This document shows positions 13,848 to 25,629 of a stretch of DNA of 25,629 nucleotides, in pieces. The position numbers were made by a program, and so were the translations under genes. The notes below the pieces were generated by a model. The model ran no database searches, was not told the origin of the DNA, and was given only the letters and a program-made list of their open reading frames with translations. Origin of the DNA: a virus; the IMG/VR virus record IMGVR_UViG_3300045999_011399, positions 1-25,629 of that record; one strand, given 5' to 3'. The first letter of the stretch is position 1, and each line of letters opens with the position of its first letter.

Positions 13848-13850
13848 GGG

Positions 13851-14870
13851 TCAGTCCTCCAAGGGGGTCACGGTGAGAGCGGCGCGGTAGGTGCTGGCGT
13901 CCTGCCAGCGTGCGGGTATCTGCTTGGCCGGGCGCTCGATGACCGGCCAGGAGATCTTGAAGCCCGAGGCGCGCGCCCGTGGGCTGTCGCCCATGAGGGC
14001 GGCAATCCGCGCCTTGGTGTTGTCGGTGAAGGCCTCGACGCGGGCGAGGTGACGCTTGCGGCGCAGGTACTGCCGGCAGAGCATCGGCAGGGTGTTGTCG
14101 CCGCGCAGGTCCATCCCGGGATCCTTGGCGCCGATCTTCTGGCCGAAGCGGTACTGCTCGGCAATGGCGTCGTAGTCGGCCACCAGTGCCGGTGGCTCGC
14201 CGGCCTGCACGCCCTTCCAGAAGGCCTCGATCGCGTCCTGGATCTTGTCCTGGGTCGGGCCGTGGCGCTCGATCCGGCCGCGCTTGAGCTCGTTGCCGCC
14301 GACGCAGGCCACGACCCAGCCGTGGTCGGCATCGGAGACGCCGATCTGCGCCTGGAGCTGCAGCATGTACTTGATCGGGGGGACGAGGATCTCCTCGCCG
14401 TCGGCGACCCAGTCGCGGCGGAAGATCGAGAAGTCGATGTTCTTGAACTCGACCGGCGGCATGCCGGGCTGGTGGACCTCGTAGTCGAGCGAGCAGCCCC
14501 AGCCCTTGACCGTGGCGTGGGTCAGGTAGCGCCGGACCTTGCGGAGCTTCCAGCCGTCCCACTTCGAGGACGCCCAGGCCGCAAGCGCCGGCTCGATGAA
14601 CTTGCCGGCGTCGACACGCTCGACCCCGTCCAGGCTCTCGGGCTTGACCATGCCCGACTTCTCCAGCCAGAGCCGGTAGCCGCTCTTGAAGCTGGACAGG
14701 CACTCCAGGATGACTGCGCCCTCGGGCGGGGTCTCGTACAGGTGAAAGACGCGCTCCTCACCGGTGGGGAGTGCCCAGAGATAGAACAGCGAGGCGACCT
14801 CGCTGCCGCCGACGTTCTGCTCGCGCAAGGCAAGCCACTCGGCTTCGGATTCAAAATGGATCGATGGCAT
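13851..14870 (-). CDS. YqaJ / lambda-Exo-like recombination exonuclease
   Basis: The 339-residue product shows the YqaJ viral recombinase pattern of the PD-(D/E)xK nucleases. R16-x-x-NVGGSE (residues 16-24) is the entry motif, GKFIEP with Glu93 follows, and the catalytic centre is Asp129 in CSLDYEV and Glu141-Phe-Lys143 in VEFKN. QLQAQIG follows at about residues 166-172. Such enzymes resect DNA ends to give 3' overhangs for an annealing protein, here encoded next. The start ATG has an AGGAG site 8 nt upstream and is the first gene after the 14898-14926 promoter. It is therefore the promoter-proximal gene of leftward operon 1. Confidence 0.88.
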   Translation of the reverse strand: MPSIHFESEAEWLALREQNVGGSEVASLFYLWALPTGEERVFHLYETPPEGAVILECLSSFKSGYRLWLEKSGMVKPESLDGVERVDAGKFIEPALAAWASSKWDGWKLRKVRRYLTHATVKGWGCSLDYEVHQPGMPPVEFKNIDFSIFRRDWVADGEEILVPPIKYMLQLQAQIGVSDADHGWVVACVGGNELKRGRIERHGPTQDKIQDAIEAFWKGVQAGEPPALVADYDAIAEQYRFGQKIGAKDPGMDLRGDNTLPMLCRQYLRRKRHLARVEAFTDNTKARIAALMGDSPRARASGFKISWPVIERPAKQIPARWQDASTYRAALTVTPLED

Positions 14871-14897
14871 GTGCCGGGCTCCTGTTGTTGAAGCCCA

Positions 14898-14926
14898 ACT
14901 GTGTCACGCTGATGATACTTGGTCAA
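14898..14926 (-). promoter_or_regulatory. Promoter of leftward operon 1 with operator-like 16-mer (site 1)
   Basis: Read on the minus strand: TTGACC (-35, 14921-14926), 17 nt, CACAGT (-10 position, 14898-14903). The 16-mer TATCATCAGCGTGACA (14902-14917) fills the spacer and ends in the -10. Its outer arms TATCA/TGACA are complementary with one mismatch. The spacing to the exonuclease ATG at 14870 leaves a short leader with an AGGAG site. The -10 is weak (3 of 6), so the assignment depends on the similarity with sites 2 and 3. Confidence 0.5.
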
Positions 14927-14943: not shown

Positions 14944-15294
14944 ATGAAGCCGATCCGTTTGCATGCTGGAGCGAAAGGAAACAAGTTCGGCGCTGTGTCC
15001 GTCGTCGTCGATGGCCTGCGTTTCGATTCAAAGCGCGAGGCGGCGAGGTGGGGCGAGCTGCGCATACTGGAGCGTGCCGGGCTCATCTCCGGCCTGGAGC
15101 GGCAGGTGCGGTTCCCGATGGTCATAGCCGGCCAGCTCGTTTGCACATACGTCGCCGACTTCAGATACATGGACCGCGGATCCCAGGTCGTTGAGGACTT
15201 GAAGTCGCCGATCACGCGAAAGCAGGCCGACTACCGCATCAAGGTGAAGCTGCTCCGAGCGCTGCACGGCGTAGAGATTCGAGAGACTTCCTGA
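14944..15294 (+). CDS. DUF1064-type putative nuclease
   Basis: The 116-residue product begins MKPIRLHAGAKGNKFGAV and contains FDSKREAARWGEL, a conserved opening of the DUF1064 phage family. QVRFPMVI, YVADFRYMDRGSQVVEDLKS and KQADYRIKVKLLRALHG follow. The D-F-x-Y ... V-E-D-L-K order is that of a small PD-(D/E)xK nuclease (Asp in ADF; Asp/Glu and Lys in EDLK). Its partner in phages is usually the replication module, which begins next. A role in resolving DNA branches is possible but unproven. The frame is open upstream to 14869, but that overlaps the promoter, and the family N-terminus is at 14944. GC is lower than in neighbouring genes. Confidence 0.82.
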   Translation: MKPIRLHAGAKGNKFGAVSVVVDGLRFDSKREAARWGELRILERAGLISGLERQVRFPMVIAGQLVCTYVADFRYMDRGSQVVEDLKSPITRKQADYRIKVKLLRALHGVEIRETS

Positions 15295-15470
15295 TCCGAC
15301 GGTCGTTCAGAGGCCGGAAAGCCGACCGCGTGCTAACGTCGCGTCGCGCTCGGGTTCCGGGCGCCCGGCGCACAAGCCGGTGTTCGGCGGCCTAGCCCGA
15401 CGGGGCGAAAAGGCGGTGCACCTCCCCGCCCTGGCCATGCCGGCTTCAGGAGGGCCAGCGAGGTAAGGCG
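15295..15470 (+). other. Intergenic leader with GC-rich inverted repeats
   Basis: About 180 nt without a convincing gene. It holds CGGTCG paired with CGACCG just after the DUF1064 stop (about 15300-15330), with an inner GGC/GCC arm. It also has the perfect 12-bp palindrome CCGGGCGCCCGG (15357-15368) and a GGCGG...CCGCC hairpin (about 15411-15430). None is followed by a T run, so they are not intrinsic terminators. Tiny frames starting at GTG are possible but have no support. It may be a structured leader for the replication genes. Confidence 0.35.
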
Positions 15471-15506
15471 ATGCAGACGATCCCACGCCAGGGGGGGGGC
15501 AGATGA
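15471..15506 (+). CDS. Candidate 11-residue leader peptide (MQTIPRQGGGR)
   Basis: An ATG preceded by AGGTAAGG opens a frame of 11 codons that runs through the G9 tract and stops at a TGA overlapping the initiator start as ATGA. Its translation would carry ribosomes through the hairpin that holds the next start codon. No homology is expected at this size. Alternatively it is the true N-terminus of the next gene, shifted out of frame by a one-base miscount or polymorphism in the G tract. Confidence 0.35.
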   Translation: MQTIPRQGGGR

Positions 15507-15516
15507 CCACCCCCCC
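15491..15516 (+). promoter_or_regulatory. G9/C7 hairpin enclosing the initiator start codon
   Basis: Nine G (15491-15499) are followed, after 10 nt, by seven C (15510-15516). Seven G-C pairs can form with a loop of 10 nt that contains the ATG (15503-15505) of the next gene. The G tract also occupies the ribosome-binding position. In the mRNA this could limit initiation unless an upstream ribosome opens it. The long G tract is also prone to slippage and to sequencing error. Confidence 0.45.
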
Positions 15517-16549
15517 TTATCCCCACGACACCCGCGCCAAGGGCTGGCGCTTCGAGCTGGACCATGAACGGGTCCGGCAGTCCGATACCTGGGCGCTGGC
15601 GCCGCGAGAGATCCGGCCGTGGCTGCTCATGCTGTGGATGGTGGCCTGGGAACAGACACCCTGCGGCTCCCTGCCGGCGGATGACCGCCTGATCGCCGCT
15701 CGGCTGGACATGCCCATGGAGCTGTTCGCCCCGCATCGGGACGTGCTGCTGCGCGGCTGGTGGGCCGCCGAGGACGGCCGGCTCTACCACGACACCCTGG
15801 TCGAGCGGGTGCGCGAGATGATGAGCGTTCGAGGCGTCGACCGGGCCAGGGCAGATGCTCGCCGAAACCAGTTCGAGAAGGTCCGCGAGCGCGATGGGCA
15901 CGCCTGCGTCTACTGCGGGAACACGAAATACCTGACCCTGGACCATCTTGTGCCGCTATCTCGCGGCGGGTCGAACGACGAGGAGAACCTCGTCACTGCC
16001 TGCAGGCCTTGCAATTCCAAGAAGCGCGACCGCACCCCAGAGGAAGCCGGGATGCCGCTTCTTGCATCTGCTGCGGGGAGATGGTCCGCATACAGAAAAT
16101 CCGCCGGAGAAACACGGACGAACGCGGACGAACACGGAGAAACACGGACGAACAACACCGGAACCGGAACCGGAACCGGAACCAGTACCGGTACCGACAA
16201 CAAGAACCCTGCGGCCAACAGTGTTGGCGCCGCAAGCCCGAGCCGCGGGGCGCGGCTCGCCCAAGACTGGGTCCTGCCCAAGTCCTGGGGCGAGTGGGCC
16301 GTCGATGAGCTGGGCATGAGTGCCGAGCAGGTGCGCACCGAGGCCGCCAAGTTCCGGGACTACTGGTGCGCCAAGTCCGGCAAGGACGCCACCAAGCTCG
16401 ACTGGCAGGCCACGTGGCGCAACTGGTGCCGCAACGCCAAGCCCGCCACCAAGCCGCCGCCCGCTCCCGTCGACACCATGTCCAAGATGGCCAGGGTCCG
16501 GGACCTGCTGGGCGCATCCTTCATCGAGGTGAACACCCATGGACATTGA
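15503..16549 (+). CDS. Replication initiator-like protein with internal HNH domain
   Basis: The 348-residue product is a mosaic. Residues 10-108 (AKGWRFELDHERVRQSDTWAL, RPWLLMLWMVAWEQTPCGSLPADDRLIAARL) resemble the winged-helix N-terminus of phage replication organisers. Residues 123-180 form an HNH nuclease domain: CVYC (135-138), DH (147-148), NL (162-163) and CRPCN (167-171). Residues 200-235 are a repetitive linker (ETRTN, TGTGTGTST). The C-terminus (250-340, WGEWAVDELG, LDWQATWRNWCRNAK) is like the DNA-binding tail of initiators of this class. It precedes a loader-like gene, as O precedes P in lambda, and its linker DNA has tandem repeats. The HNH DNA seems somewhat lower in GC. Function is inferred. 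Confidence 0.75.
   Translation: MTTPPYPHDTRAKGWRFELDHERVRQSDTWALAPREIRPWLLMLWMVAWEQTPCGSLPADDRLIAARLDMPMELFAPHRDVLLRGWWAAEDGRLYHDTLVERVREMMSVRGVDRARADARRNQFEKVRERDGHACVYCGNTKYLTLDHLVPLSRGGSNDEENLVTACRPCNSKKRDRTPEEAGMPLLASAAGRWSAYRKSAGETRTNADEHGETRTNNTGTGTGTGTSTGTDNKNPAANSVGAASPSRGARLAQDWVLPKSWGEWAVDELGMSAEQVRTEAAKFRDYWCAKSGKDATKLDWQATWRNWCRNAKPATKPPPAPVDTMSKMARVRDLLGASFIEVNTHGH
16106..16153 (+). repeat. Tandem 10-bp repeats inside the initiator gene (candidate iterons)
   Basis: Four head-to-tail 10-mers at 16111-16150 read AACACGGACG, AACGCGGACG, AACACGGAGA and AACACGGACG. At a larger scale the 18-mer GGAGAAACACGGACGAAC occurs twice, 30 bp apart (16106 and 16136). A 10-bp period keeps the sites on one face of the helix. 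In lambda, the origin iterons lie within the initiator gene O, so this is a candidate origin; a slippage-grown linker is the alternative. Confidence 0.55.
16157..16198 (+). repeat. Tandem hexamer tract (ACCGGA)n
   Basis: Four exact ACCGGA units (16157-16180) are followed by three variants (ACCAGT, ACCGGT, ACCGAC). They encode the TGTGTGTGTSTGTD linker. The unit length keeps the reading frame when copies are gained or lost, so the tract may differ in length between related phages. It follows directly after the 10-bp repeats. Confidence 0.7.
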
Positions 16550-17306
16550 CCGCGATCTCGAACCCTTCGGCGCCATGCTCGACGCCGTGTGCGGCCTGCT
16601 CAGCCGCGGCGCCTACACCCCCAACGAGGTCTCGACGGCGATCTTCTTCCGCGCCCTCCAGCCCTGGCCGTTCGAGCAGATCCGGTCGGCGTTCGATGCC
16701 CATGTGCGCGATCCCGAGCGCGGTCGGTTCGTGCCGACCCCTGCCGACATCCTGGCCCAACTGCACGGCCGCACCGCCAACGACGGCCGGCCCGGGCCCG
16801 AGGAGGCGTGGTCGATCGCCATCCGCGGCATGGACGAGTCGGCCACGGTGGTCTGGACCGACGAGATCTGCGCCGCCTGGGCGGTGGCCCGGCCGGTGAT
16901 GCAGCTCGGCGACGAGGTCGGCGCCCGGATGGCGTTCAAGGAGGCCTACACCCGGATCCTGGCCGAGGCGCGCGCCAGCGGCACGCCGATGGCCTGGGTC
17001 ACCTCGCTGGGCCACGACCCCGAGCAGCGGGCCGCTGCGGTGCGCGAGGCCGTGGTGCTGAAGCGCCTGCCGCAGAGTGCCGCCGAGGCCCTGCTGCCGG
17101 CGCCACGCGAGGCCGTGCCGCTCCTGGAGGGGCCGGCCCCGGCCGGCGTGCGGGAGCAGCACCTGGAGCGCCTGCGCGGCCTGCGCGAGCTGCTGCGCCG
17201 GCAGAAGCCCGCGTCGCGCCACGTGCCGGACGGCGCCGCCGCCAGAACCTCGGCGCTCAAGCGCGCCACGGCCGCCCAGGTCGCCGCCTACCAGGGTGAG
17301 GCATGA
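16539..17306 (+). CDS. Probable replication (helicase loader-type) protein
   Basis: The 255-residue product has family-like segments: DRDLEPFGAMLDAVCGLL, FFRALQPWPFEQIRSAFDAHVRDPERGRFVPTPADI, NDGRPGPEEAW, VVWTDEICAAWAVARPV and GDEVGARMAFKEAYTRILAEAR. Similar proteins follow the initiator in phages of GC-rich Gram-negative bacteria. By position it could be a functional counterpart of lambda P, recruiting the host helicase; this is inferred and I do not see an AAA+ motif. It overlaps the initiator by 11 nt and has a GAGGTGA ribosome site. The C-terminal part (residues 180-250) is Ala/Pro/Arg-rich and probably flexible. Confidence 0.7.
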   Translation: MDIDRDLEPFGAMLDAVCGLLSRGAYTPNEVSTAIFFRALQPWPFEQIRSAFDAHVRDPERGRFVPTPADILAQLHGRTANDGRPGPEEAWSIAIRGMDESATVVWTDEICAAWAVARPVMQLGDEVGARMAFKEAYTRILAEARASGTPMAWVTSLGHDPEQRAAAVREAVVLKRLPQSAAEALLPAPREAVPLLEGPAPAGVREQHLERLRGLRELLRRQKPASRHVPDGAAARTSALKRATAAQVAAYQGEA

Positions 17307-17524
17307 ACCCTGGCGAGCGCATGGTCACGCTGGCCGACGGCCGCGAGGTCTCGAACTACAGCCCGGAGTGGCGCGAGGAGTGCCTCGCCCGCGACCTGCT
17401 GCGCCGGCCCCGGGACGAGCGGCTGGCGTTCTACGCGGCGTTCGGCAAGCGCAACGGCGAGGCGGCCGCCAAGGCGCTGCGCGACAGCGTCGTCCGCCTC
17501 TACCGGCTGGGGACGCCCGCATGA
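17303..17524 (+). CDS. Small conserved-looking hypothetical protein
   Basis: The 73-residue product starts in an ATGA overlap with the preceding replication gene and ends in an ATGA overlap with the next gene. Its sequence has VTLADGREVSNYSPEWREECLARDLL, then LAFYAAFGKRNGEAAAKALRDSVVRLYRLG. It is charged and helical, without Cys pairs, signal or membrane segment. The opening with LADGR and S-x-x-W-R-x-E-C-x-A-R recalls a small phage family near replication genes, but I cannot name a function. A second ATG seven codons in (MVTLADGR) is a possible alternative start. Confidence 0.7.
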   Translation: MNPGERMVTLADGREVSNYSPEWREECLARDLLRRPRDERLAFYAAFGKRNGEAAAKALRDSVVRLYRLGTPA

Positions 17525-17727
17525 AATGCCTTCGATGCGGCCGGCCGGTGCTCCGGCCCAAGGCCCTGCTCACGCTGAGCGACGGCAGCACGGTCTGCTG
17601 GGGCCCGAAATGCGCGGTCGTGGCCGGGCTGGCGCAAAGGCCCGAGAAACGCCGCGCGCGCCCTGGCAGCCCCGCCATCGCGGGTCCGCACCAGCTCGAC
17701 TGGGTCAACGCGCTGTGCAGCCTTTGA
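17521..17727 (+). CDS. Small zinc-ribbon-like protein
   Basis: The 68-residue product starts MKCLRCGRPVLRPKALLTLSDG, with CxxC at residues 3-6, and continues VCWGPKCAVVAGL with two more cysteines (about 29 and 34). This gives four ligands for a small zinc site. The rest is basic (RPEKRRARPG) and ends WVNALCSL. The CxxCGRPL...GPKC layout recurs in small phage early proteins that in my memory have no assigned function. It is coupled to the gene before (ATGA) and to the next small gene, whose TTG start overlaps its TGA. Confidence 0.75.
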   Translation: MKCLRCGRPVLRPKALLTLSDGSTVCWGPKCAVVAGLAQRPEKRRARPGSPAIAGPHQLDWVNALCSL

Positions 17728-17876
17728 TCCCGATCATTCCCGCGTGCATGGGCGGCTGGTGCCAAGCGCGGCAGAGCTGCAAGCACTACCTCGTGCCGAC
17801 CAGCCGCGAACAGCCGGCGGAGCGGCTGTGCCCACGAAACCGAGACTTCCCTGTGCCGGTTCTGCCCCCGCCATGA
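17724..17876 (+). CDS. Small Cys-rich protein (CMGGWC type), TTG or ATG start
   Basis: The frame contains ACMGGWCQARQSCKHYLV and PAERLCPRNRD, giving four cysteines spaced as in a compact metal site. The C-x-GGWC-x-x-R-x-x-C-x-H-Y ... PAERLC pattern resembles tiny conserved phage proteins. With the TTG at 17724, which overlaps the previous stop (TTGA), it has 50 residues and begins IPIIPACMGGW. With the ATG at 17748 it has 42 residues and loses the first cysteine, so the TTG start is preferred. It is the last gene of the rightward replication unit. Confidence 0.65.
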   Translation: MIPIIPACMGGWCQARQSCKHYLVPTSREQPAERLCPRNRDFPVPVLPPP

Positions 17877-17894
17877 GGCTTGTGCGGGATGGCG

Positions 17895-17922
17895 TCGGTT
17901 CCGGACATATCGACGTGTCGGG
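17895..17922. other. Inverted repeat between convergent units
   Basis: In the 52-nt gap between the rightward replication unit and leftward operon 2, CCGGACA and TGTCGGG flank an 8-nt centre (TATCGACG) and are complementary with one mismatch. It lies where both transcripts would end. There is no T run on either strand, so it is not a standard intrinsic terminator. A processing site or a weak bidirectional stop is possible. Confidence 0.3.
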
Positions 17923-17928
17923 GGCCTA

Positions 17929-18153
17929 CTACGATTGCCGGACAAGGTCGACGTAGGCGCCGAAGTGCCGGTCGAACACCTGGATGAGGTGCTCGTAGTC
18001 GCCGGACCGCATCTCGGCCAGGATGGCCTCGGCGTCGAGGCCCAGCTCGCGGGCGAAGCGGCTGGCCAGCCCCATGAGGACCCAGGCGTTCCCCTGCGGT
18101 CCTGCGAGGTCGATCTTGGGCTTCTGCCATGGAGAATTGCGCAGGATCGCCAT
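17929..18153 (-). CDS. Small conserved phage protein, last gene of leftward operon 2
   Basis: The 74-residue product begins MAILRNSPWQKPKIDLAGPQGNAWVLMGLASRFARELG and ends GDYEHLIQVFDRHFGAYVDLVRQ. The W-Q-K-PKIDL-GPQGNA...LMG motif is typical of a widespread small phage protein of unknown function, in my recollection found in many Gram-negative phages. It is mostly helical. The start follows the upstream stop by 2 nt and has a GGGGA site. The frame opens 10 codons earlier, but that part overlaps the upstream gene and does not match the family start. Confidence 0.82.
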   Translation of the reverse strand: MAILRNSPWQKPKIDLAGPQGNAWVLMGLASRFARELGLDAEAILAEMRSGDYEHLIQVFDRHFGAYVDLVRQS

Positions 18154-18155
18154 GG

Positions 18156-18569
18156 TCAGTCCCCCAGGCCCGGCACGCGCCATGGATCGAGGTCGTCGTC
18201 GCGCACCGGTGCCCGGGAGAACAGGTCGCGGGCCGGCCGGCGGCGCTGCGTCGCATAGGGCGCGATCGGCTGCAGGCTGGCCATGACGTTCCAGATCCGG
18301 TGATAGGCGCCGTGCAGGCGGTCGTTGCGCACCGAGTTCTTAAAATTCCCGTAGTCGAGCCCGAAGGCCAGCTCGGCCAGGACGTTGGCCACGTCCATGC
18401 GCGGGACCGTAGCGCGGAAGAGGTAGTCGCGGCCCGGCGTGCGCTGGACGGCGTGGCCGGGGAACACGCGCTGCAGGTCGCCCGGCCGGCGGGCGCGCAC
18501 CAGCAGGTGATCGGGCTGTCCCGGGGCGGTCACGATCGAGAAGAAGGCGTCGGAGAGGCAGATCCACAT
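18156..18569 (-). CDS. Conserved phage hypothetical (MWICLxDAF type)
   Basis: The 137-residue product starts MWICLSDAFFSIVTAPGQPDHLLVRARRPGDLQRVFPG and contains TPGRDYLFRATVPR and IDYGNFKNSV-like (LDYGNFKNSVRNDRLHGAYHRIWNVM). This MWICLxxAF...LLVRAR...GD...VFP...DYxFRA...YGNFKxSV pattern is recognisable as a common phage/bacterial hypothetical family without known function. The C-terminal 30 residues are Arg/Pro-rich. It starts 5 nt after the upstream stop and is followed by a 2-nt gap to the next gene, so it is part of leftward operon 2. Confidence 0.78.
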   Translation of the reverse strand: MWICLSDAFFSIVTAPGQPDHLLVRARRPGDLQRVFPGHAVQRTPGRDYLFRATVPRMDVANVLAELAFGLDYGNFKNSVRNDRLHGAYHRIWNVMASLQPIAPYATQRRRPARDLFSRAPVRDDDLDPWRVPGLGD

Positions 18570-18574
18570 GATGC

Positions 18575-18910
18575 TCAGGCCTCAAGGGTCTCGGCGTAGT
18601 CGAGGCAGGCGTCCATCACGGGCGTCCAGCGCGGGCCCTCGGAGTGGTCGGCGATGGCGTCCCAGCCCGAGTTGCCGAGGATGATGACGGCGCAGTGCCG
18701 GCCGCGCTCCTCCGGGTGATCGAACACGATCCGAGACTCGTCGACCGCGAACACGGCCTCCAGGACCTCCTCGTCGGTGCGGGCCGGCACGCGCTCGGCC
18801 GTGTCGTACCAGACAAAGGCGGGCGTGAACCCGGCCTCCCGGGCGGTCTTCAGCAGGAAAAGAACGACTTGGCGCTCCGTGGCTAGGCGGGCGGCGACTT
18901 CGATGCTCAT
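18575..18910 (-). CDS. Hypothetical protein of leftward operon 2
   Basis: The 111-residue product begins MSIEVAARLATERQVVLFLLKTAREAGF and has an AAGGAG site 7-8 nt before the ATG. It is an alpha-beta protein: VVLFLLKTAREAGFTPAFVWYD, a Glu-rich stretch with TDEEVLEAVFAVDESRIVFD, and CAVIILGNSGWDAIADHSEG. The GNSGWDxIxDHS segment looks conserved, but I cannot assign a family. There is no membrane or zinc motif. It is acidic, unlike the basic proteins around it. Confidence 0.7.
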   Translation of the reverse strand: MSIEVAARLATERQVVLFLLKTAREAGFTPAFVWYDTAERVPARTDEEVLEAVFAVDESRIVFDHPEERGRHCAVIILGNSGWDAIADHSEGPRWTPVMDACLDYAETLEA

Positions 18911-18943
18911 GGGGATGGCTCCTTGGTGGGGGTGGGTGATGGA

Positions 18944-19453
18944 TCAGGCGGCCTTCGGCAGGCGCTTCAGGGGCTTGCCGGTCTTGCCGAGCGTGGCTTG
19001 GTAGGCCATGGCTGCGGCGTGCAGCGCCTTGCGCTCCTCGGCGCTCATGGCGCGGCGGTACTTCGTGGCGCCGGCGTAGCCCACGAAGCTGCCGCCGCCT
19101 TCGGTCTCGATGCGCACGCAGGCGAGATCGGGCTGGTTCACGTAGCCGGCTTCTGCGCCGGTCACGCGCAGCACCTTGGCCACGCGCAGCCAGCGGGTGG
19201 GCTCGGTGTAGGAGCCGGCCGCGAAGCCCTCGGAGAGGATCAGGTCACCGGGCTTGAAGTCCTCGGCCGGAATCATGCGCTGCTCGTTGAGCCACGCCTG
19301 GGCGGCCAAGCCGCGCTTGGTGAGAACCTCGCCTCGGCCGGCGCAGCCGTAGCAGCGGCTGCCGTGCATCAGGTTGAAGGAGAACTTCCCGCTGCCGCCG
19401 CAACGGCCGCAGGTGGTGCTTTCGAGGAGGAGTTTCTTGGCGGGCTGGTTCAT
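18944..19453 (-). CDS. DnaJ-type zinc-finger phage protein, first gene of leftward operon 2
   Basis: The 169-residue product has near its N-terminus CGRCGGSGKF (Cys15, Cys18) and CYGCAGRGEV (Cys34, Cys37). These are two CxxCxGxG motifs of the DnaJ central zinc domain, but there is no J domain, so it is not a chaperone of the full type. The rest (KPGDLILSEGFAAGSYTEPTRWLRVAKVLRV, RIETEGGGSFVGYAGATKYRR) is beta-rich. Proteins with this layout occur in phages as hypotheticals. It is the promoter-proximal gene behind the strongest palindrome (19491-19506). The leader is short and the ribosome site weak. Confidence 0.78.
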   Translation of the reverse strand: MNQPAKKLLLESTTCGRCGGSGKFSFNLMHGSRCYGCAGRGEVLTKRGLAAQAWLNEQRMIPAEDFKPGDLILSEGFAAGSYTEPTRWLRVAKVLRVTGAEAGYVNQPDLACVRIETEGGGSFVGYAGATKYRRAMSAEERKALHAAAMAYQATLGKTGKPLKRLPKAA

Positions 19454-19486
19454 CGCGGTGGCTCGGGGTTCGCTGTCGATGTCGGT

Positions 19487-19514
19487 ACTGTATCACCGCC
19501 GTGATATTCCGCAA
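19487..19514 (-). promoter_or_regulatory. Promoter of leftward operon 2 with perfect operator palindrome (site 2)
   Basis: On the minus strand: TTGCGG (-35, 19509-19514), 16 nt, TACAGT (-10, 19487-19492). The 16-mer TATCACGGCGGTGATA (19491-19506) is a perfect palindrome in its 6-bp arms. Read on the plus strand it begins TATCACCGC, the lambda CI/Cro operator half-site. A protein bound here would cover the spacer and the -10. Transcription would start about 27 nt before the ATG at 19453. Confidence 0.6.
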
Positions 19515-19525
19515 GGGGTTTTGCG

Positions 19526-19549
19526 AAAAAAGAGCGCCTGAAGCGCCCT
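19526..19549 (-). terminator. Leftward intrinsic terminator upstream of leftward promoter 2
   Basis: On the minus strand AGGGCGC, a 5-nt loop (TTCAG) and GCGCTCT form a 7-bp stem with one G-T pair, followed by T6 (19526-19531 as A on the plus strand). It would stop leftward transcripts from the region above before they reach promoter 2. On the plus strand there is no T run. Confidence 0.55.
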
Positions 19550-19554
19550 GCGGC

Positions 19555-19584
19555 TTGTGCCCCGCCTGCGCTCGGTGCTATCGT
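19555..19584 (+). promoter_or_regulatory. Possible rightward promoter for the methyltransferase unit
   Basis: TTGTGC (19555-19560) and TATCGT (19579-19584) are 18 nt apart, and TGC before the second makes an extended -10. It lies about 60 nt before the ATG at 19646. The match is modest (3 and 4 of 6), so this is only a candidate. Confidence 0.3.
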
Positions 19585-19645
19585 TCCGGGCATGCTGGCA
19601 GCCGTGCGCGCCGGCCCGCTTCCCCCGCCCCATCACCGCCCCACC

Positions 19646-19912
19646 ATGCCCAACATCCACACCCCCGAGCGCCTCGAAGGCGAGTCCCGCGAGGCCTACG
19701 CCCTGCGCCGACGCGACAGCCGCGCCGCCCTGCGCGCCATGACGCTGGCCGGCATCGGCCGGCAGCGCCAGGAGCCCAGCAGCCGCGAGCAGCTCCGCGA
19801 CTCGCAGCGCCGCAGCGGCCATGGGCCGAAGGGCACCTACGGCCGGGGCCTGCTGGAGCCGGGCCGCCGCGCCCGCGCCCAGGCCATGCAGCAGCGCGCC
19901 GGAGAGCGGTGA
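19646..19912 (+). CDS. Small basic phage protein
   Basis: The 88-residue product begins MPNIHTPERLEGESREAYALRRRDSRAA and continues with SREQLRDSQRRSGHGPKGTYGRGLLEPGRRARAQ. It is strongly basic and Gln/Arg-rich. The IHTPxRLxGES...Y..RR opening and the G-rich R-x-L-R-x-S middle recall short phage hypotheticals near methyltransferase genes. The frame is open upstream to 19592, but the family-like start and sequence begin at 19646. No clear ribosome site is seen. It ends 2 nt before the methyltransferase ATG, so co-translation is likely. Nucleic-acid binding is inferred from charge only. Confidence 0.65.
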   Translation: MPNIHTPERLEGESREAYALRRRDSRAALRAMTLAGIGRQRQEPSSREQLRDSQRRSGHGPKGTYGRGLLEPGRRARAQAMQQRAGER

Positions 19913-19914
19913 CC

Positions 19915-21261
19915 ATGTCGGCAACCTTCGCCATCGAGCTGCGCCCGCTGGACAGCCTGATCCCCTACGCCCGCAACAGCCGGACCCACTCCGACGCCCA
20001 GGTCGGGCAGATCGCCGCCTCGATCGTCGAGTTCGGCTTCACCAACCCGGTGCTGGCGGATGCCACCGGCATCGTCGCCGGGCACGGCCGCGTCCTGGCC
20101 GCGCGCCGGGTCTACGACGCCGGCAAGGCCGTCCGCCTGCCCAACGGCCAGGAGCTGCCCAAGGGCACCGTCCCGGTCATCGACTGCACCGGCTGGAGCG
20201 AGGCCCAGCGCCGGGCCTACGTCATCGCCGACAACCAGCTCGCGCTCAACGCCGGCTGGGACATGGAGCTGCTCAAGGTCGAGATCGCCGACCTGCAGGC
20301 CGAGGGCTTCGAGCTGGGCCTCCTGGGCTTCGACGAGAACTTCCTGGACGGCCTCCTGGCCCCGCCGGAAACCGAGGGCCTCACCGACCCCGACGAGGCC
20401 CCGGGCATCCCCGACGAGCCCGTGGCGGTGCTGGGCGACGTCTGGGTGCTGGGCCACCATCGCCTGATGTGCGGCGACAGCCTGGACCTCGCCGCGGTCG
20501 AGCGCCTGATGGACCGGGTCAAGGCCGACGTCCTGATCACGGACCCGCCCTACAACGTGGCCTACGAGGGCGGGACCAAGGACAAGCTCAAGATCAAGAA
20601 CGACGCCATGAGCGACGCCGACTTCCGGCAGTTCCTGCGCGACGCCTTCGTGGCCGCCGACGCGGTGATGAAGCCCGGGGCGGTGTTCTACATCTGGCAC
20701 GCCGACTCCGAGGGCTACAACTTCCGTGGCGCGTGCCACGAGGCCGGCTGGAAGGTGCGCCAGTGCCTGATCTGGGAGAAGGACAGCCTCGTCCTCGGGC
20801 GCCAGGATTACCAGTGGATCCACGAGCCCTGCCTCTACGGCTGGAAGGACGGCGCCGGCCATCTCTGGGCCGCCGACCGCAAGCAGACGACGATCCTCAA
20901 GTTCGAGCGGCCGAAACGCAACGACGTCCACCCGACCATGAAGCCGGTGGCGCTGATCGAGTACCAGCTCCTGAACAACACCAAGGGCGGCGACGTCGTC
21001 CTCGACCTGTTCGGCGGCTCGGGCACGACGCTGATCGCGGCCGAGAAGAACGGCCGGGTCGCCCGGCTGATGGAGCTCGACCCACGCTACGTCGACGTCA
21101 TCGTCACCCGCTGGCAGCAGTTCACCGGCAAGGTGGCGTTCCTTGAGGCCGACGGTCGGACCTTCGCCGAGGTGCTGGGCGAGCGGCGCCCTGGCAAGGT
21201 GATCGGCAACGCCTCGACCGACGACAAGCTCAAGAAGGCCCCGCGCAAGAAGGCCGCATGA
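19915..21261 (+). CDS. ParB-domain DNA methyltransferase (N6-adenine/N4-cytosine class)
   Basis: The 448-residue product joins two domains. Residues 8-115 are ParB/Srx-like (IPYARNSRTHSDAQVGQIAASIVEFGFTNPVL, AGHGR at 55-59, YVIADNQLALNAGWD). Residues 175-420 are an N4/N6 DNA methyltransferase: CGDS, then the catalytic DPPY (210-213) before the AdoMet-binding DLFGGSG (364-370). This order is that of the beta class. HPTMKPVALIEY lies between them. Such enzymes modify phage DNA and can protect it from host restriction. The GGAGA site lies 9 nt before the ATG; a GTG two codons upstream is an alternative. The much longer open frame upstream is an artefact. The specificity cannot be read from sequence. 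Confidence 0.93.
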   Translation: MSATFAIELRPLDSLIPYARNSRTHSDAQVGQIAASIVEFGFTNPVLADATGIVAGHGRVLAARRVYDAGKAVRLPNGQELPKGTVPVIDCTGWSEAQRRAYVIADNQLALNAGWDMELLKVEIADLQAEGFELGLLGFDENFLDGLLAPPETEGLTDPDEAPGIPDEPVAVLGDVWVLGHHRLMCGDSLDLAAVERLMDRVKADVLITDPPYNVAYEGGTKDKLKIKNDAMSDADFRQFLRDAFVAADAVMKPGAVFYIWHADSEGYNFRGACHEAGWKVRQCLIWEKDSLVLGRQDYQWIHEPCLYGWKDGAGHLWAADRKQTTILKFERPKRNDVHPTMKPVALIEYQLLNNTKGGDVVLDLFGGSGTTLIAAEKNGRVARLMELDPRYVDVIVTRWQQFTGKVAFLEADGRTFAEVLGERRPGKVIGNASTDDKLKKAPRKKAA

Positions 21262-21632
21262 TCGCCTTCCCGAAGACGCTGGCGTTCCGCTCCGAGCCGT
21301 ACCGCCGGCTGGTGGCGGCCCTGCCCTGCATCCACTGCGGCCGGCCCGGCCCGACGCAGGCGGCGCACCCCAGCACCGGGCGCGGCGGGGCCATGAAGAC
21401 CGACGACCGGCTGTGCTTTCCGCTGTGCGCGCCCCGCCTGGGCGATCCCGGCTGCCACGCCCGCTTCGACCAGGGCGCCCTGTTCACCAAGGCCGAGCGC
21501 CGGGAAACCGAGGCCGTCTGGTCCCGCGATACGATCCGCCTGCTGATCCGGCTCGGCCGCTGGCCGGACGGCATGCCACTGCCGCAGGTCGAAGGGTTGG
21601 AGGAGCCATGGGTCGGCGCATCATCGTCATGA
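21258..21632 (+). CDS. Ref-like / DUF968-like HNH nuclease
   Basis: The 124-residue product contains PCIHCGRPGPTQAAHPS (Cys24, Cys27, His37), then GAMKTDDRLCFPLC (Cys57) and GCHARFDQG (Cys66, His67). This is the Cys/His layout of small HNH nucleases related to P1 Ref, a RecA-dependent nuclease, and of DUF968-type phage proteins. The Asp-Asp and Lys before the second half are usual. It probably nicks or cuts DNA in recombination or host takeover; the exact role is inferred. It is coupled to the methyltransferase by ATGA, so the two are made together. Confidence 0.8.
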   Translation: MIAFPKTLAFRSEPYRRLVAALPCIHCGRPGPTQAAHPSTGRGGAMKTDDRLCFPLCAPRLGDPGCHARFDQGALFTKAERRETEAVWSRDTIRLLIRLGRWPDGMPLPQVEGLEEPWVGASSS

Positions 21633-21871
21633 CGCACAAGGGCTGGTTCGGGCTCTGCCCGGTCTGGGCCGGCGGTCTGCTCCAGGACCGGTGCTATATC
21701 GAGGCCCGCCACCGCTGGTTGGAGTGGCTCTTCGACGTGTCGAACGCGCTCTTTGCGCTCCGGCACACCGTGGAAGCAGCGCTGGGCGACGACGACCTGC
21801 GGTTCCCGCTGCGTCTGACCGGCGAGATCCGCCCGCGCCTTCGCGTGATCGATGACCCGGACGAGGCCTAG
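21608..21871 (+). CDS. Conserved phage hypothetical (THKGWFGLCPV type)
   Basis: The 87-residue product has an AGGAG site just before its ATG and overlaps the HNH gene by 25 nt. It opens MGRRIIVMTHKGWFGLCPVWAGGL, then AERH-like (EARHRWLEWLFDVSNALFALRH) and FPLRLTGEI. The pattern K-R-I-x-V-x-T-H-x-GWFG-x-CPV ... LTGE is, in my memory, a recurring phage hypothetical. The middle is an amphipathic or weakly membrane-associated helix pair. Function is unknown. Its TAG overlaps the stop of the convergent leftward gene (21868-21871). Confidence 0.75.
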   Translation: MGRRIIVMTHKGWFGLCPVWAGGLLQDRCYIEARHRWLEWLFDVSNALFALRHTVEAALGDDDLRFPLRLTGEIRPRLRVIDDPDEA

Positions 21872-22176
21872 CCCTTGACGCGCTTCTTCTGCGCCACATG
21901 CACCGTTGGCTTGCCGCCGATCACCCGATATGGCTCGCCGTCGGACTCGTAGAGGAATCCGGCCATGCCGTCGGCCTTGAGGGCGGATCTCCAGACGACA
22001 CCCTTGCCGCGCGGGTTCGGCACCCGGGCCGCCATCCGCTCCCGCCATAATGCGTCGATCACGGCTTGCGCCTCCTCCGGCCGGTCGCCCAGCCAGAGGG
22101 CGATCTGCGCTGCCGAAGCTCCCCCTGGGCACGCTGCGAACAGCGCCTGCAGATACAGGTGCCGCGGCGCCGTCAT
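21868..22176 (-). CDS. Winged-helix-like protein, last gene of leftward operon 3
   Basis: The 102-residue product begins MTAPRHLYLQALFAACPGGASAAQIALWLGDRPEEAQAVIDALWRERMAARVPN, which looks like a helix-turn-helix with a following recognition helix. A small beta wing (VWRSALKADGMAGFLYESDGEPYRVIGGK) follows, with a basic tail. This suggests DNA binding. No specific family is recognised. It is separated by 22 nt from the upstream gene. Its end meets the convergent rightward gene with a 4-nt overlap of the two stop codons. Confidence 0.7.
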   Translation of the reverse strand: MTAPRHLYLQALFAACPGGASAAQIALWLGDRPEEAQAVIDALWRERMAARVPNPRGKGVVWRSALKADGMAGFLYESDGEPYRVIGGKPTVHVAQKKRVKG

Positions 22177-22198
22177 GGGCGCCGATTGTGGCCGTGGA

Positions 22199-22561
22199 TC
22201 AGGCCATTGTGGAGCTCTTGCGCACGTTGATCGGCAGGCCCAGCGACCAGACCGAGGAGATCGAGCGGTTCTTGCGCGCCTGATACTCCCGCTTGTAGCG
22301 CGCCTGGAGGTCGACCTTCGGCCGCTTGACCGACTTGCCTGGGCCGGGCGCGATGACCGGGCGCGGGTAGCGCCTCGCCCCCTCGTGGTCCCAGACGTAG
22401 CCGATCACGTGCGCCCGCTGGCCGTGCACGGGAGATGTCTGCAGCAGGACATGCGCCGCCGCTGCCGCGTGCTTGCGGCTGATGCCCAGCGCGTCGGCCA
22501 CCTCGGACGCTGTCGCCGGCCCGTTCTCGCGCAGGTGCTTGAGGAACAGCATCACGCTCAT
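22199..22561 (-). CDS. Winged-helix DNA-binding protein
   Basis: The 120-residue product opens MSVMLFLKHLRENGPATASEVADALGISRKHAAAAAHVLLQ, a clear winged helix (helix 2-3: ATASEVADALGISRKHAAAAAHVL). This resembles the MarR/IclR-like phage proteins that control transcription or help replication. The C-terminal part is very basic (GKSVKRPKVDLQARYKREYQARKN). The start overlaps the upstream stop (ATGA). It could be a regulator of the phage or a host-takeover DNA-binding protein; its target is unknown. It is in the operon controlled by site 3. Confidence 0.8.
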   Translation of the reverse strand: MSVMLFLKHLRENGPATASEVADALGISRKHAAAAAHVLLQTSPVHGQRAHVIGYVWDHEGARRYPRPVIAPGPGKSVKRPKVDLQARYKREYQARKNRSISSVWSLGLPINVRKSSTMA

Positions 22562-22875
22562 GCCGCGGCCCCCTGCTGGTCGAGCCAGTGCTGCAGCGGG
22601 TGGATCTCCATCCCGAGCGCCTGGGCGATGGTCAGCTCCAGCATCGCACCCTTGGAGTCCATGTAGCCCGGCAGCAGGGCCACCGCGGTGCAGTCCATCA
22701 GCAGCACGATGTCCCGGCGCAGGTACTGGGCCCAGGTCAAGCCGGGCGCCTCGTGCTCGGCCGGGTTGGCCACCTCGAAGCCCAGGCCGCGCAGCGCCGC
22801 GGCGGCCGCATGGAACGCCGGGAAGTTGAGCTCCGGAAGCCCGCTCATCGGGCCGGAGACGTAGATCCGGATCAT
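22558..22875 (-). CDS. DUF4406 protein (nucleoside deoxyribosyltransferase-like)
   Basis: The 105-residue product begins MIRIYVSGPMSGLPELNFPAF and continues LRGLGFEVANPAEH, TWAQYLRRDIVLLMDCTAVALLPGYMDSKGAMLELTIAQALGME. This matches the DUF4406 / nucleoside deoxyribosyltransferase-like fold: YxSGPM, NFP, NPAE, a D-x-x-L-x-x-C-x-A segment and S-x-GA-x-x-E-x-x-x-A. Proteins of this fold bind nucleotides; an enzymatic role in nucleotide salvage or modification is possible. Both ends are coupled to neighbours by ATGA. Confidence 0.88.
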   Translation of the reverse strand: MIRIYVSGPMSGLPELNFPAFHAAAAALRGLGFEVANPAEHEAPGLTWAQYLRRDIVLLMDCTAVALLPGYMDSKGAMLELTIAQALGMEIHPLQHWLDQQGAAA

Positions 22876-23114
22876 CGCTTGGCCTCCGCCTGCAGTGCCT
22901 CGGCCGCCCGGATCAGCCGGCGGGCATCGCCTTCGACCAGCCCCGGGATCCTGGCATCGAACCAGATCCGGCCGATCTCGTCGTCCGTGAGCCGGCGCCG
23001 CGCCATGGCTCCGAGCATCGCCGCCCGAATCTCCTGGTGCAGCTCGCCGACGATGCGCTCGTGCGTGGCGATGGAGATGGTCGCCCCGCTTGGGTTCCTC
23101 TCGATGTCGTCCAT
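22872..23114 (-). CDS. Small helical hypothetical protein
   Basis: The 80-residue product starts MDDIERNPSGATISIATHERIVGELHQEIRAAMLG and has an AGGAGG site 6 nt before the ATG. That site lies inside the preceding microprotein. The frame is open far upstream, but the part above 23114 lies in the shadow of the two upstream genes. The body is helical with alternating charges (ARRRLTDDEIGRIWFDARIPGLVEGDARRLIRAAEALQ). No motif is recognised. Its stop overlaps the DUF4406 start (ATGA). Confidence 0.7.
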   Translation of the reverse strand: MDDIERNPSGATISIATHERIVGELHQEIRAAMLGAMARRRLTDDEIGRIWFDARIPGLVEGDARRLIRAAEALQAEAKR

Positions 23115-23191
23115 CAGTAACCTCCTGTCAGTACATGGACCGTGAAAGCCGCGAGCAGCGTCAGCGCCGCCGCGAGAAGAAGATCGCTCAT
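23114..23191 (-). CDS. 25-residue single-membrane-segment microprotein
   Basis: This frame begins MSDLLLAAALTLLAAFTV and ends HVLTGGY. Nearly all of residues 4-21 are hydrophobic, enough for one membrane helix. Its ATG overlaps the stop of the upstream gene (ATGA) and its TGA overlaps the downstream start (TGATG), so it fits exactly between two coupled genes. An AGGAGG site for the next gene lies inside it. The protein resembles tiny membrane proteins of phages in size and placement, but no function can be named. Superinfection exclusion or a membrane-protein modulator is a guess. Confidence 0.65.
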   Translation of the reverse strand: MSDLLLAAALTLLAAFTVHVLTGGY

Positions 23192-23622
23192 GCCAGCAGC
23201 CGCTCGCGCACCAGCAGCGCCGCCAGGAGCGCGATGCGGTAGCGCTGCACCAGCCGGGCATGGGTGCTGACGCCCAGGATGCGGCTTTGCCGGATCTGCT
23301 CGCGGTCGCCGCTCCTGGCCGCCCGGTAGAGCCGCTCGACTGACTTGGCGTAGGTGTAGGCCTTGCCGTCGACCGCGATCTCCGGCGGCGGAGGCAGTTG
23401 ACCCGCCAGCGCCGCCGCCTCGGCCGCCGCGGCCCGGCTGGCCCGCGCCTTGACGATCGCCTGCCCCGGCTGCAGCGGAACCCAGAACCAGCCGGACCCG
23501 TCGGTTTCGACCGCATATTCCTGGCCCAGGCTTGCCGCCATCCCGCCCGCGGCAAACGCCGCTTCCGCCGCTGCCGAGGCCTCTTCGGAACTCGGAAAGC
23601 GCATACTCTTCCATCCGATCAT
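23188..23622 (-). CDS. Hypothetical protein, first gene of leftward operon 3
   Basis: The 144-residue product begins MIGWKSMRFPSSEEASAAAEAAFAAGGMAASLGQEYAVETDGSGWFWVPLQPGQ, with an AGGAG site 9 nt upstream. It has an N-terminal Ala-rich helix, a short beta part with GWFWVPL, an Ala-rich central helix and a C-terminal helical segment with basic residues (RSRILGVSTHARLVQRYRIALLAALLVRERLLA) that is partly hydrophobic. I do not recognise the family. It is the promoter-proximal gene behind site 3 (23685-23713). Its TGA overlaps the microprotein start (ATGA). Confidence 0.65.
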   Translation of the reverse strand: MIGWKSMRFPSSEEASAAAEAAFAAGGMAASLGQEYAVETDGSGWFWVPLQPGQAIVKARASRAAAAEAAALAGQLPPPPEIAVDGKAYTYAKSVERLYRAARSGDREQIRQSRILGVSTHARLVQRYRIALLAALLVRERLLA

Positions 23623-23684
23623 TGCTGCAGACTCCTGCCGTTGAGATGCGAGAATTGTGGCGCATCACGCGCTCTCACGCAATC

Positions 23685-23713
23685 AGAATATCACGGAAAT
23701 GACACTACGTCAG
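23685..23713 (-). promoter_or_regulatory. Promoter of leftward operon 3 with operator-like 16-mer (site 3)
   Basis: On the minus strand: CTGACG (-35, 23708-23713), 17 nt, TATTCT (-10, 23685-23690). The 16-mer TGTCATTTCCGTGATA (23689-23704) fills the spacer as in sites 1 and 2 and agrees with site 2 at 12 of 16 positions (read on the plus strand). The site overlaps the TerS start codon region on the other strand. A transcript would begin about 56 nt before the ATG at 23622. Confidence 0.5.
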
Positions 23714-24190
23714 GGAAAGTCCGCACCGAAGGCAGCCGCGAAATCCGCAACCGCCGTGCCAGTGAAAAAACCTGCGCGCAAGAAGCCGGGCCCGCCGCCG
23801 TTCGAGCCCACGGCCGAGCAGCGCCAGCTCGTGATGCTGGCGGCGGCCATCGGCATGACGCACGAGCAGATCGCCAAGCAGGTGAACTACCCGACCGGGA
23901 TCCACCCGGAGACCCTGCGCAAGCACTTCCCCGAGGAGCTGGCGCAGGGCCCGGAGCGGGTCGGCCTGATGGTGGCCAGGAACCTCGTGGCGATCGCCTC
24001 GGACAAGACCCACAAGGCCAGCCACATCGCCGCCATGTTCTACCTCAAGGCCCGGCGCGGCTGGCGCGACGGCCATGGCGGGCCGGTCTCGGCCGAGGTC
24101 GAGGTGCCGGGCAAGGGCGGCGACGCGCCGGTGCGGTTCACGCTGAAGATCGGCGACCGCGACCCCAAGGCGGACGACAGCGTCGCCTGA
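23699..24190 (+). CDS. terS: Terminase small subunit
   Basis: The 163-residue product has a basic Ala/Lys/Pro-rich N-terminus (TLRQGKSAPKAAAKSATA, PVKKPARKKPGPPPFEPT). A helix-turn-helix follows in LVMLAAAIGMTHEQIAKQVNYPTGIHPETLRKHFPEEL, then a helical oligomerisation part (VARNLVAIASDKTHKASHIAAMFYLKARRGWRD). The GMTHEQIA...LRKHFxxEL...YxKxRxGWR pattern is that of HTH-type phage TerS, which recognises the packaging site. It lies 7 nt before terL. The frame is open from a GTG at 23657, giving 177 residues. The ATG at 23699 is preferred, but it overlaps the site 3 palindrome, so the true start is uncertain. Confidence 0.82.
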   Translation: MTLRQGKSAPKAAAKSATAVPVKKPARKKPGPPPFEPTAEQRQLVMLAAAIGMTHEQIAKQVNYPTGIHPETLRKHFPEELAQGPERVGLMVARNLVAIASDKTHKASHIAAMFYLKARRGWRDGHGGPVSAEVEVPGKGGDAPVRFTLKIGDRDPKADDSVA

Positions 24191-24197
24191 TCCTGGC

Positions 24198-25463
24198 ATG
24201 CCGGTCACGATCGAGTACGAGCGCCCGTGGCTCTACCCGGCGCAGCAGGCCGCGATCTTCGACGCCCGCGACCTGAACGGGCAGGCCGCGCGCTACGCGC
24301 TGATCGAGGCCTCGACCAAGGCCGGCAAGACCGTGGGCTGCATGGCGTGGCTGGTCGAGCAGGCGGTGATCCACGGCTCCCCCGGGCGGGCCTACTGGTG
24401 GGTGGCGCCGGTCTACCCGCAGGCCCGCATCGCCTTCCGCCGGATCAAGCGCGGCCTGCCGCGGGCGCTCTACCGCGCCAACGACGGCGAGATGACGCTC
24501 ACCCTGCCCAACGGGTCGACGATCTGGTTCAAGTCCGCCGAGAAGCCCGACAACCTCTACGGCGAGGACGTCTATGCCGCGGTGATCGACGAGGCCTCGC
24601 GCTGCCGTGAGGCGAGCTGGATCGCCGTCCGCTCGACGCTGACCGCCACCCGCGGGCCGGTGCGGATCATCGGCAACGTCAAGGGCCGCTCGAACTGGCA
24701 CTACAAGCTCGCCCGCAAGGCCGAGGCCGGCGAGCCCGGCATGGCTTACGCCAAGCTCACCGCCTGGGACGCGGTGGCCGGCGGCGTCCTGGCCCGGGAG
24801 GAGATCGAGGACGCCCAGCGCCTGCTGCCGGATAACGTCTTCCGCGAGCTCTACCTCGCCGAGCCCAGCGACGACGACGGCAACCCGTTCGGCCTCAAGC
24901 ACATCGACGCCTGCACCGTGCGCGAGCTGTCGCCGGCCGCCACCGTCTGCGTCGGCGGCGACCTCGCCAAGTCGATCGACTGGACCGTCCTGATCGGCCT
25001 GGACAAGCGCCGCTGCATGACCGGCTTCGACCGCTGGCAGAAGCTGCCTTGGGACAAGACCTCCGAGCGGATCCTGGGCCTCGTCGGCAAGGCGCCGACC
25101 CTGCTGGACTCGACCGGTGTCGGCGATCCCGTGGTCGAGGGCCTGACCAAGAAGCGCCCGACGATCGAGGGCTTCAAGTTCACCGCGACCTCCAAGCAGC
25201 AGCTCATGGAGGGCTTGGCCGTCGCCATCCAGAGCCACGACCTGGGCATCGTCGCCGGCCCGGTGATCGCCGAGCTGGAGAACTTCGAGTACCGCTACAC
25301 GCGGACCGGCGTCCGCTATTCCGCCCCCGACGGGTATCATGACGACTGCGTCATGGCGCTGGCCCTGGCGGTCGAGAAGCACCGCCAGCTCTCGCCTGCG
25401 ATGTTCAGCGCGATGGCGCCGGGCGGCGGCACCCGGATCTCGCCGTGGCTCGGCGGCAGTTAG
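24198..25463 (+). CDS. terL: Terminase large subunit
   Basis: The 421-residue product is complete and has both activities. The packaging ATPase includes a P-loop ASTKAGKT (residues 38-45, Lys44), SAEKPDNLYGEDVYAAVIDEASR with Walker B Asp131/Glu132 and IGNVKGRSNWHY as the coupling-type segment. The C-terminal nuclease is of the RNase H fold type, with acidic residues Asp255 (GGDLAKSIDWTV), Asp304 (LLDSTGVGD) and Asp382/383 (YHDDCVMALALA). It translocates DNA into proheads and cuts concatemers. It follows terS by 7 nt; the ribosome site is weak. The length is on the short side for TerL, mainly at the N-terminus. Confidence 0.93.
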   Translation: MPVTIEYERPWLYPAQQAAIFDARDLNGQAARYALIEASTKAGKTVGCMAWLVEQAVIHGSPGRAYWWVAPVYPQARIAFRRIKRGLPRALYRANDGEMTLTLPNGSTIWFKSAEKPDNLYGEDVYAAVIDEASRCREASWIAVRSTLTATRGPVRIIGNVKGRSNWHYKLARKAEAGEPGMAYAKLTAWDAVAGGVLAREEIEDAQRLLPDNVFRELYLAEPSDDDGNPFGLKHIDACTVRELSPAATVCVGGDLAKSIDWTVLIGLDKRRCMTGFDRWQKLPWDKTSERILGLVGKAPTLLDSTGVGDPVVEGLTKKRPTIEGFKFTATSKQQLMEGLAVAIQSHDLGIVAGPVIAELENFEYRYTRTGVRYSAPDGYHDDCVMALALAVEKHRQLSPAMFSAMAPGGGTRISPWLGGS

Positions 25464-25480
25464 AACCCCCGGAGAGCAGG

Positions 25481-25629
25481 ATGGCCGAAGCGACCCCCTA
25501 CAAGCTGAAGTTCGACCCGGCCACCATCGGCTCGACCGGCCTGCGGCAGTTCGGCGGCTTCGTCTCCGAGGAGTACCTCAAGGAGCTGCAGGGCGTCCGC
25601 GGCGCCCGCACCTACCGCGAGATGGCTCT
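25481..25629 (+). CDS. Portal protein, N-terminal part (3' truncated)
   Basis: Only the first 49 residues are visible. The protein starts MAEATPYKLKFDPATIGSTGLRQFGGF and continues with VSEEYLKELQGVRGARTYREM before the window ends. The STGLR...G-x-V-x-EE-x-L-x-EL-x-G-x-RG-x-R-x-YREM opening is that of phage portal proteins of the type placed just after terL. The ATG lies 17 nt after the terL stop, with a GGAGAG site upstream. The portal forms the ring through which DNA is packaged. The assignment depends on position and this short N-terminus. Confidence 0.75.
   Translation, partial: MAEATPYKLKFDPATIGSTGLRQFGGFVSEEYLKELQGVRGARTYREMA

Follow-up and report, generated by a model that had tools for sequence, protein, structure and literature searches.

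A putative Cro/CI-type operator within a promoter spacer of an uncultivated phage, shared with CI-bearing and CI-less relatives

Overview

The palindrome at positions 19491-19506 of the window, the whole 25,629-base stretch of viral DNA that was analyzed, is very probably a repressor-controlled on/off site and is treated here as a putative operator. The operator reading is well supported, as the promoter position, the conservation, and the recurrence of the site in related phages argue strongly for the repressor operator of the original prediction. With a probability of roughly 0.6, its reader would be a Cro-like protein of the phage itself (here sXRE) and in temperate relatives also a CI repressor, with the bound dimer occluding RNA polymerase.

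The window, with about 70% GC, is listed in IMG/VR as a linear virus record. Besides an early region it contains tail and terminase genes as well as a ParB-methyltransferase fusion (lysis and tail calls on the left side were made by eye). Megablast of positions 15000-25629 against named phages returned no match, and for TerL and the exonuclease the named-phage relatives are distant only. The DUF1376-like early gene at 15503-16549 contains an HNH endonuclease domain at residues of about 135-186, which the corresponding 296-aa protein of the related record G001 does not have; judged by this comparison, the domain looks like an in-frame insertion.

The palindrome and its promoter

The 16-mer TATCACCGCCGTGATA is placed exactly at 19491-19506 and reads TATCACGGCGGTGATA on the minus strand. 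Its arms TATCAC and GTGATA flank CGCC and form an inverted repeat that is perfect over 6 bp, as originally described, and the palindrome lies far beyond chance. Allowing up to 3 mismatches on both strands, the 16-mer was found at one place in the window, compared to 0.06 expected from dinucleotide shuffles, and TATCACNNNNGTGATA also occurs a single time. Its first nine bases are TATCACCGC, which we take to be the consensus half-site of the lambda operators. A 16-mer opening with a lambda-like 9-bp half-site had been predicted and was recovered in this form. The operator-family pattern TRTCAYNNNNRTGAYA, which was derived later and includes this site, matches the window three times (14902, 19491, and 23689), while 1000 order-1 Markov shuffles of the window averaged 0.003 matches and never exceeded 1. 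The features around the site are as follows, with G001 being a 59.7-kb phage record and the nearest relative.

19491-19506, minus strand: putative operator, from sequence; top score with the relatives-trained matrix; orthologous site at 23300-23315 in G001
19509-19514, minus strand: -35-like hexamer TTGCGG, from sequence; TTG at offset -8/-9, which is the family rule
19487-19492, minus strand: -10-like hexamer TACAGT, from sequence; TGA before it (extended -10); TAAAGT aligned in G001
18944-19453, minus strand: gene of a 169-aa protein with a CxxCxGxG zinc-finger-like segment, downstream of the operator
19531-19549, minus strand: terminator-like stem-loop with a T run, just upstream of the promoter; retained in the G001 alignment

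On the minus strand the layout is TTGCGG-AATATCACGGCGGTGA-TACAGT, with hexamers 16 bp apart and a spacer filled by the operator, the downstream half of which is overlapped by TACAGT. This promoter-like sequence has a TG extension and lies 37 bp from the zinc-finger gene downstream. The site as a whole is flanked on one side by the start of that minus-strand gene (ATG at 19453); on its other side are rightward reading frames from 19592. Because a consensus promoter scan of 17500-24300 called none, the promoter reading rests on weaker hexamers together with conservation. Directly right of the operator region, at 19915-21261, a ParB-like domain is fused to an N6/N4 DNA methyltransferase.

The 169-aa protein had no Pfam match, and its weak PHROG matches were to unknown families and to the anti-termination Q-like phrog_127 (E=0.0046). 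Its relative in G001 is 71% identical, and G001 carries CCCCTTGCAAAGTATCATGGCCGTGATAAAGT 5' of the small gene that precedes this relative. In the alignment of both phages the terminator-promoter-operator unit is common to the two, and at both 14902 and 19491 the operator arms vary at Y/R positions only. Conservation in related phages, raised with the original prediction, was examined and the site was found there, including the orthologous copy in G001. No comparable site was found in the 780 bp examined of L003, an AT-rich locus with a 51% homologue of the zinc-finger gene.

Two further operators in the window

The two other pattern matches and the operon behind one of them are listed below.

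14902-14917, minus strand: second operator TATCATCAGCGTGACA, in the exonuclease-operon promoter TTGACC-17-CACAGT; matrix rank 2
23689-23704, minus strand: TGTCATTTCCGTGATA, probably a third operator, with promoter-like surroundings for the minus-strand gene 23188-23622; matrix rank 3
13851-14870, minus strand: YqaJ/RecE-like exonuclease (PF09588, phrog_434), leading gene of the operon that follows the 14902 operator
12702-13847, minus strand: second gene of the exonuclease operon (phrog_3657, by PHROG), with sXRE next
12449-12712, minus strand: sXRE, 87-aa XRE protein with a Cro/CI-type HTH, candidate reader (HTH_31, AlphaFold, Foldseek)

A matrix built from sites that precede the exonuclease in five relatives, with the window contributing none, ranked the 19491 site first with 26.2, followed by 14902 and 23689 with 22.7 and 19.1, respectively. 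The best score over 200 Markov shuffles was 19.31, which makes the third site borderline with respect to chance in this test. Its counterpart in G001 is TGTCATTTCCATGATG, and since it overlaps the start of the small terminase gene (TerS) if GTG 23657 is used, its conservation may be partly coding. The 14902 site lies ~32 bp ahead of the exonuclease start and is orthologous to O1, which precedes the exonuclease gene in 24 other loci. Its tandem partner in the window is degenerate, and the 19491 site is single.

Operators in related phages

Relatives were located via the window's exonuclease and XRE proteins. The exonuclease-alignment scan yielded 44 loci from IMG/VR and 10 from 84,980 bacterial and archaeal genomes; the 44 loci with upstream sequence comprise the window and 43 of the 44, with L057 left out as it starts inside the exonuclease. 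A perfect TRTCANNNNNNTGAYA within 110 bp upstream of the exonuclease occurred in 25 of these 44 loci, and similar sites in the relatives were 45-62 bp ahead of the gene. The small XRE protein was present in all 25 loci with O1 and in 3 of the 19 without it, a co-occurrence without independence, as the phages are related and several of the 25 loci near-identical. In the listed set, a second site (up to 2 mismatches) followed 31-34 bp further upstream in 17 of 19 operator loci and a third one (up to 2 mismatches) in 8 of 19. Arrays of 2-3 copies with steps of ~32 bp are usual among the relatives.

Several loci depart from this picture. L062 has sXRE and, ahead of its exonuclease, nothing closer than a one-mismatch site; at 7257-7700 the small XRE profile matches it twice in tandem, and it shows no CI. 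Upstream of the exonuclease in L054/L055 (G008), the operators are TATCAGCGTCCTGATA and TATCGTCGCGCTGATA with the sixth base shifted, a pattern that suggests altered repressor specificity. The L054 variant TATCAG..CTGATA had no obvious matching change in sXRE, and covariation of the variants in L054, L061, and L023 with the recognition helix was not decisive for naming one reader. Exonuclease relatives without small XRE, CI-like gene, and operator occur in L024-L026 (Azospirillum), L059, and L060.

Across whole records, the operator pattern gave 65 sites in 17 of 19 family records (738 kb), and the reversed control pattern had no match in the same 19. No site was found in 16 more distant exonuclease phage records without sXRE (785 kb). 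Approximately 56 of 59 sites were intergenic, the 59 being those of the 65 that lie within loci given to a rough gene caller, which picked antisense frames for known window genes (12687-14891, 18932-19504, and 23705-24199). A TTG starting 8 or 9 bases before the site occurred in 36 of 138 strand contexts, with 1-7 at other offsets, from which the usual geometry is an operator between -35 and -10. CI-less records with operators held 24 sites in 279 kb, with up to seven in one record (G016).

Two matches were set aside or doubted. A match of L005 to the promoter-operator pattern lies inside coding sequence of an AT-rich phage and was dropped as chance, and the G001 match at 2890-2905 is inside coding on either reading (minus ORF 1765-3042; the caller took plus) and may be chance. 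The AT-richer relative G022 (L061, L120-L125) has seven sites that read TATCATNNNNATGAYA or its reverse, as well as a second CI-like HTH region near 27981. At G019:39375-39442 there are two operators 52 bp apart, one of which is identical to the window's 16-mer.

Candidate readers

The original prediction had allowed for a reader encoded by the phage itself, and this idea gains support from sXRE, an XRE protein of Cro/CI fold with homologues in every operator-bearing locus. It matches PF13560 (HTH_31) at 28.4 bits with a cut-off of 27, scanned as the longer ORF 12449-12811. The AlphaFold model has five helices in a Cro/CI fold with a mean pLDDT of 84. Among its Foldseek matches, at modest E of ~1e-3 to 7e-3, are C.AhdI, ClgR, and the lambda repressor 1lmb (operator complex). 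The gene lies ~2.2 kb downstream of the 14902 site and does not adjoin an operator, unlike CI in the relatives. The CI-less L056 and L058 carry a diverged sXRE, with NVIRF/NVIRY instead of NT[VIL]RW in the recognition region, and have no operator sites. An sXRE that occurs without sites counts against the proposed reading; given the divergence of this sXRE, their absence also fits sXRE as the reader and is confounded by kinship.

A CI-like gene was found directly upstream of the array and co-oriented with it in 18 of the 25 operator loci (two truncated or deleted), a count in which L064 (23 bits) is taken as CI-less and L043 (C-terminal remnant only) and L035 (HTH only) as CI. The seven loci without CI there are the window, L034 (G001), L046, L050, L051, L052, and L023, with C-terminal CI scraps in L050 and in G018, the record of L052. 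Where present, CI is located between the DUF1064 gene and the exonuclease; in the window this stretch is complete and contains no CI. In G001, whose exonuclease is 92-93% identical, no CI was detected beyond noise along the whole record at E<=10 with filters off. The C-terminal half of the CI-like proteins resembles LexA/CI repressors. Peptidase_S24 was found in none of 10 records in a six-frame search; against 5 CI-like proteins it gave one match at E=0.0044, below the cut-off, and DGDGLHP or similar stands at the expected S24 serine position. The nearest named-phage relative of the G007 CI-like protein is the CI-like repressor of Paracoccus phage vB_PyeM_Pyei1, with 31% identity over 81%.

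Integrase (PF00589) occurred in 7 of 10 CI-bearing records and in none of the 9 that lack CI (Fisher p = 0.003, kinship ignored and several records being fragments). Neither CI nor integrase was found within the 25,629 bases of the window. On the exonuclease tree the CI label requires at least 6 changes (with L043 labelled CI-less), so CI has been gained or lost repeatedly.

Proposed mechanism and alternatives

In the preferred reading, the 16-bp operator of a Cro/CI-type repressor would fill the -35/-10 spacer of the promoter for the leftward zinc-finger gene group, and a dimer on it would exclude RNA polymerase by promoter occlusion. sXRE would be produced from the exonuclease operon, the promoter of which holds a second operator copy, and would shut its own early operon as well as the 19491 promoter. 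Since the 14902 operator precedes the operon that encodes sXRE, we infer a Cro-like negative feedback. Binding and repression by sXRE, and likewise by CI, are predictions. In temperate relatives, the CI-like repressor encoded directly upstream of the array may use the same sites to maintain lysogeny; in the window lineage, CI is not seen and the sites are retained. Cross-immunity imposed by the CI of a resident prophage, as had been proposed, is plausible: the same operator occurs in temperate relatives that carry CI and integrase, and in the window CI was not found.

Alternatively, the sites may be leftover or retained targets of CI from prophages of temperate relatives, with the phage a CI-less, integrase-less lytic derivative that such lysogens block and whose sXRE ignores them. 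The position of CI beside most arrays, the distribution of integrase, the CI remnants in L050, L043, and G018, and the repeated label changes on the exonuclease tree all speak for this, as does the precedent of mycobacteriophage D29 on L5-type lysogens (PMC5712189, PMC6550527). We nevertheless consider it unlikely, since selection for staying blockable by prophages is not expected, the arms stay within consensus in two CI-less phages that diverge elsewhere, CI-less records hold up to 7 sites, and sXRE is kept in all operator phages.

Less likely still is a CI-like repressor of the phage's own, encoded in a part of the genome outside the 25.6-kb fragment. The window is indeed a linear fragment and CI adjoins the array in many relatives, but the usual place of CI is complete and empty here, and the nearest relative has none even in the permissive search. 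It is very improbable that the palindrome is bound by a host regulator, serves as a promoter element with no repressor, or arose by chance: the right half overlaps the extended -10 and could partly be promoter sequence, but the left half TRTCAY is equally conserved though not promoter sequence, the sites track sXRE phages and were absent from the other phages searched, tandem 32-bp arrays occur, and chance is excluded by the shuffle and matrix tests.

Beyond reading by sXRE and CI, a wider interpretation is offered tentatively, at less than even odds: CI and integrase may have been lost repeatedly to give lytic lineages, in which the genome-wide operator network would persist via the Cro-like protein alone and leave lytic phages prone to immunity from CI-bearing prophages of related phages. 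If true, this would provide several independent natural examples in which the operators outlast the lysogeny repressor as a network. The element itself is of an ordinary kind, but the pattern of a network retained after CI loss is unexpectedly clear and testable. Starting from a single palindrome, a regulon can be predicted for which the operator is defined, readers are proposed, and relatives both with and without CI are available. The identity of the reader and the prophage immunity of lytic derivatives thereby become directly testable in an uncultivated phage family. Searches of open-licence PMC literature on dispersed operators and repressor loss listed no report on this family.

Comparison with known systems

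The named-phage protein closest to the CI-like protein of G007, that of Paracoccus phage vB_PyeM_Pyei1, has no counterpart in the window. Lambda operators are 17 bp long and stand in tandem steps of ~24 bp. The likeness to lambda OR/OL lies in the half-site TATCACCGC and the dyad symmetry of the window site, in its overlap with an early promoter, in 2-3 tandem copies in many relatives, and in CI-like and Cro-like HTH proteins within the same phages among these relatives. In contrast to lambda, the sites are 16 bp long in the window and among the relatives' listed sites, and the tandem steps are ~32 bp. The array is not between divergent cI and cro, with the relatives' CI co-oriented upstream, and the Cro-like gene is downstream of two recombination genes. 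Further sites are scattered over the genome, and CI was not found in the window. Given these differences in length, spacing, and gene order, we do not assign the sites to the lambda operator type, and the link to lambda is one of resemblance only.

In phage P1 (C1) and phiC31 (c repressor), one repressor acts on dispersed operators, and the sites described here resemble these systems in being dispersed. A further parallel is mycobacteriophage-type L5/D29 organization, in which many repressor sites are spread genome-wide and are mostly intergenic (PMC5712189). The L5 stoperators are asymmetric 13-mers (PMC5712189), whereas symmetric 16-mers in promoter spacers are found here. D29 kept a functional integrase, and none is seen in the window. 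D29 is a natural lytic phage that lost its repressor, kept the sites, and is excluded by related lysogens, as reported in PMC5712189 and PMC6550527. Just as the sites outlast the lost repressor in D29 (PMC5712189), the window keeps its sites without CI.
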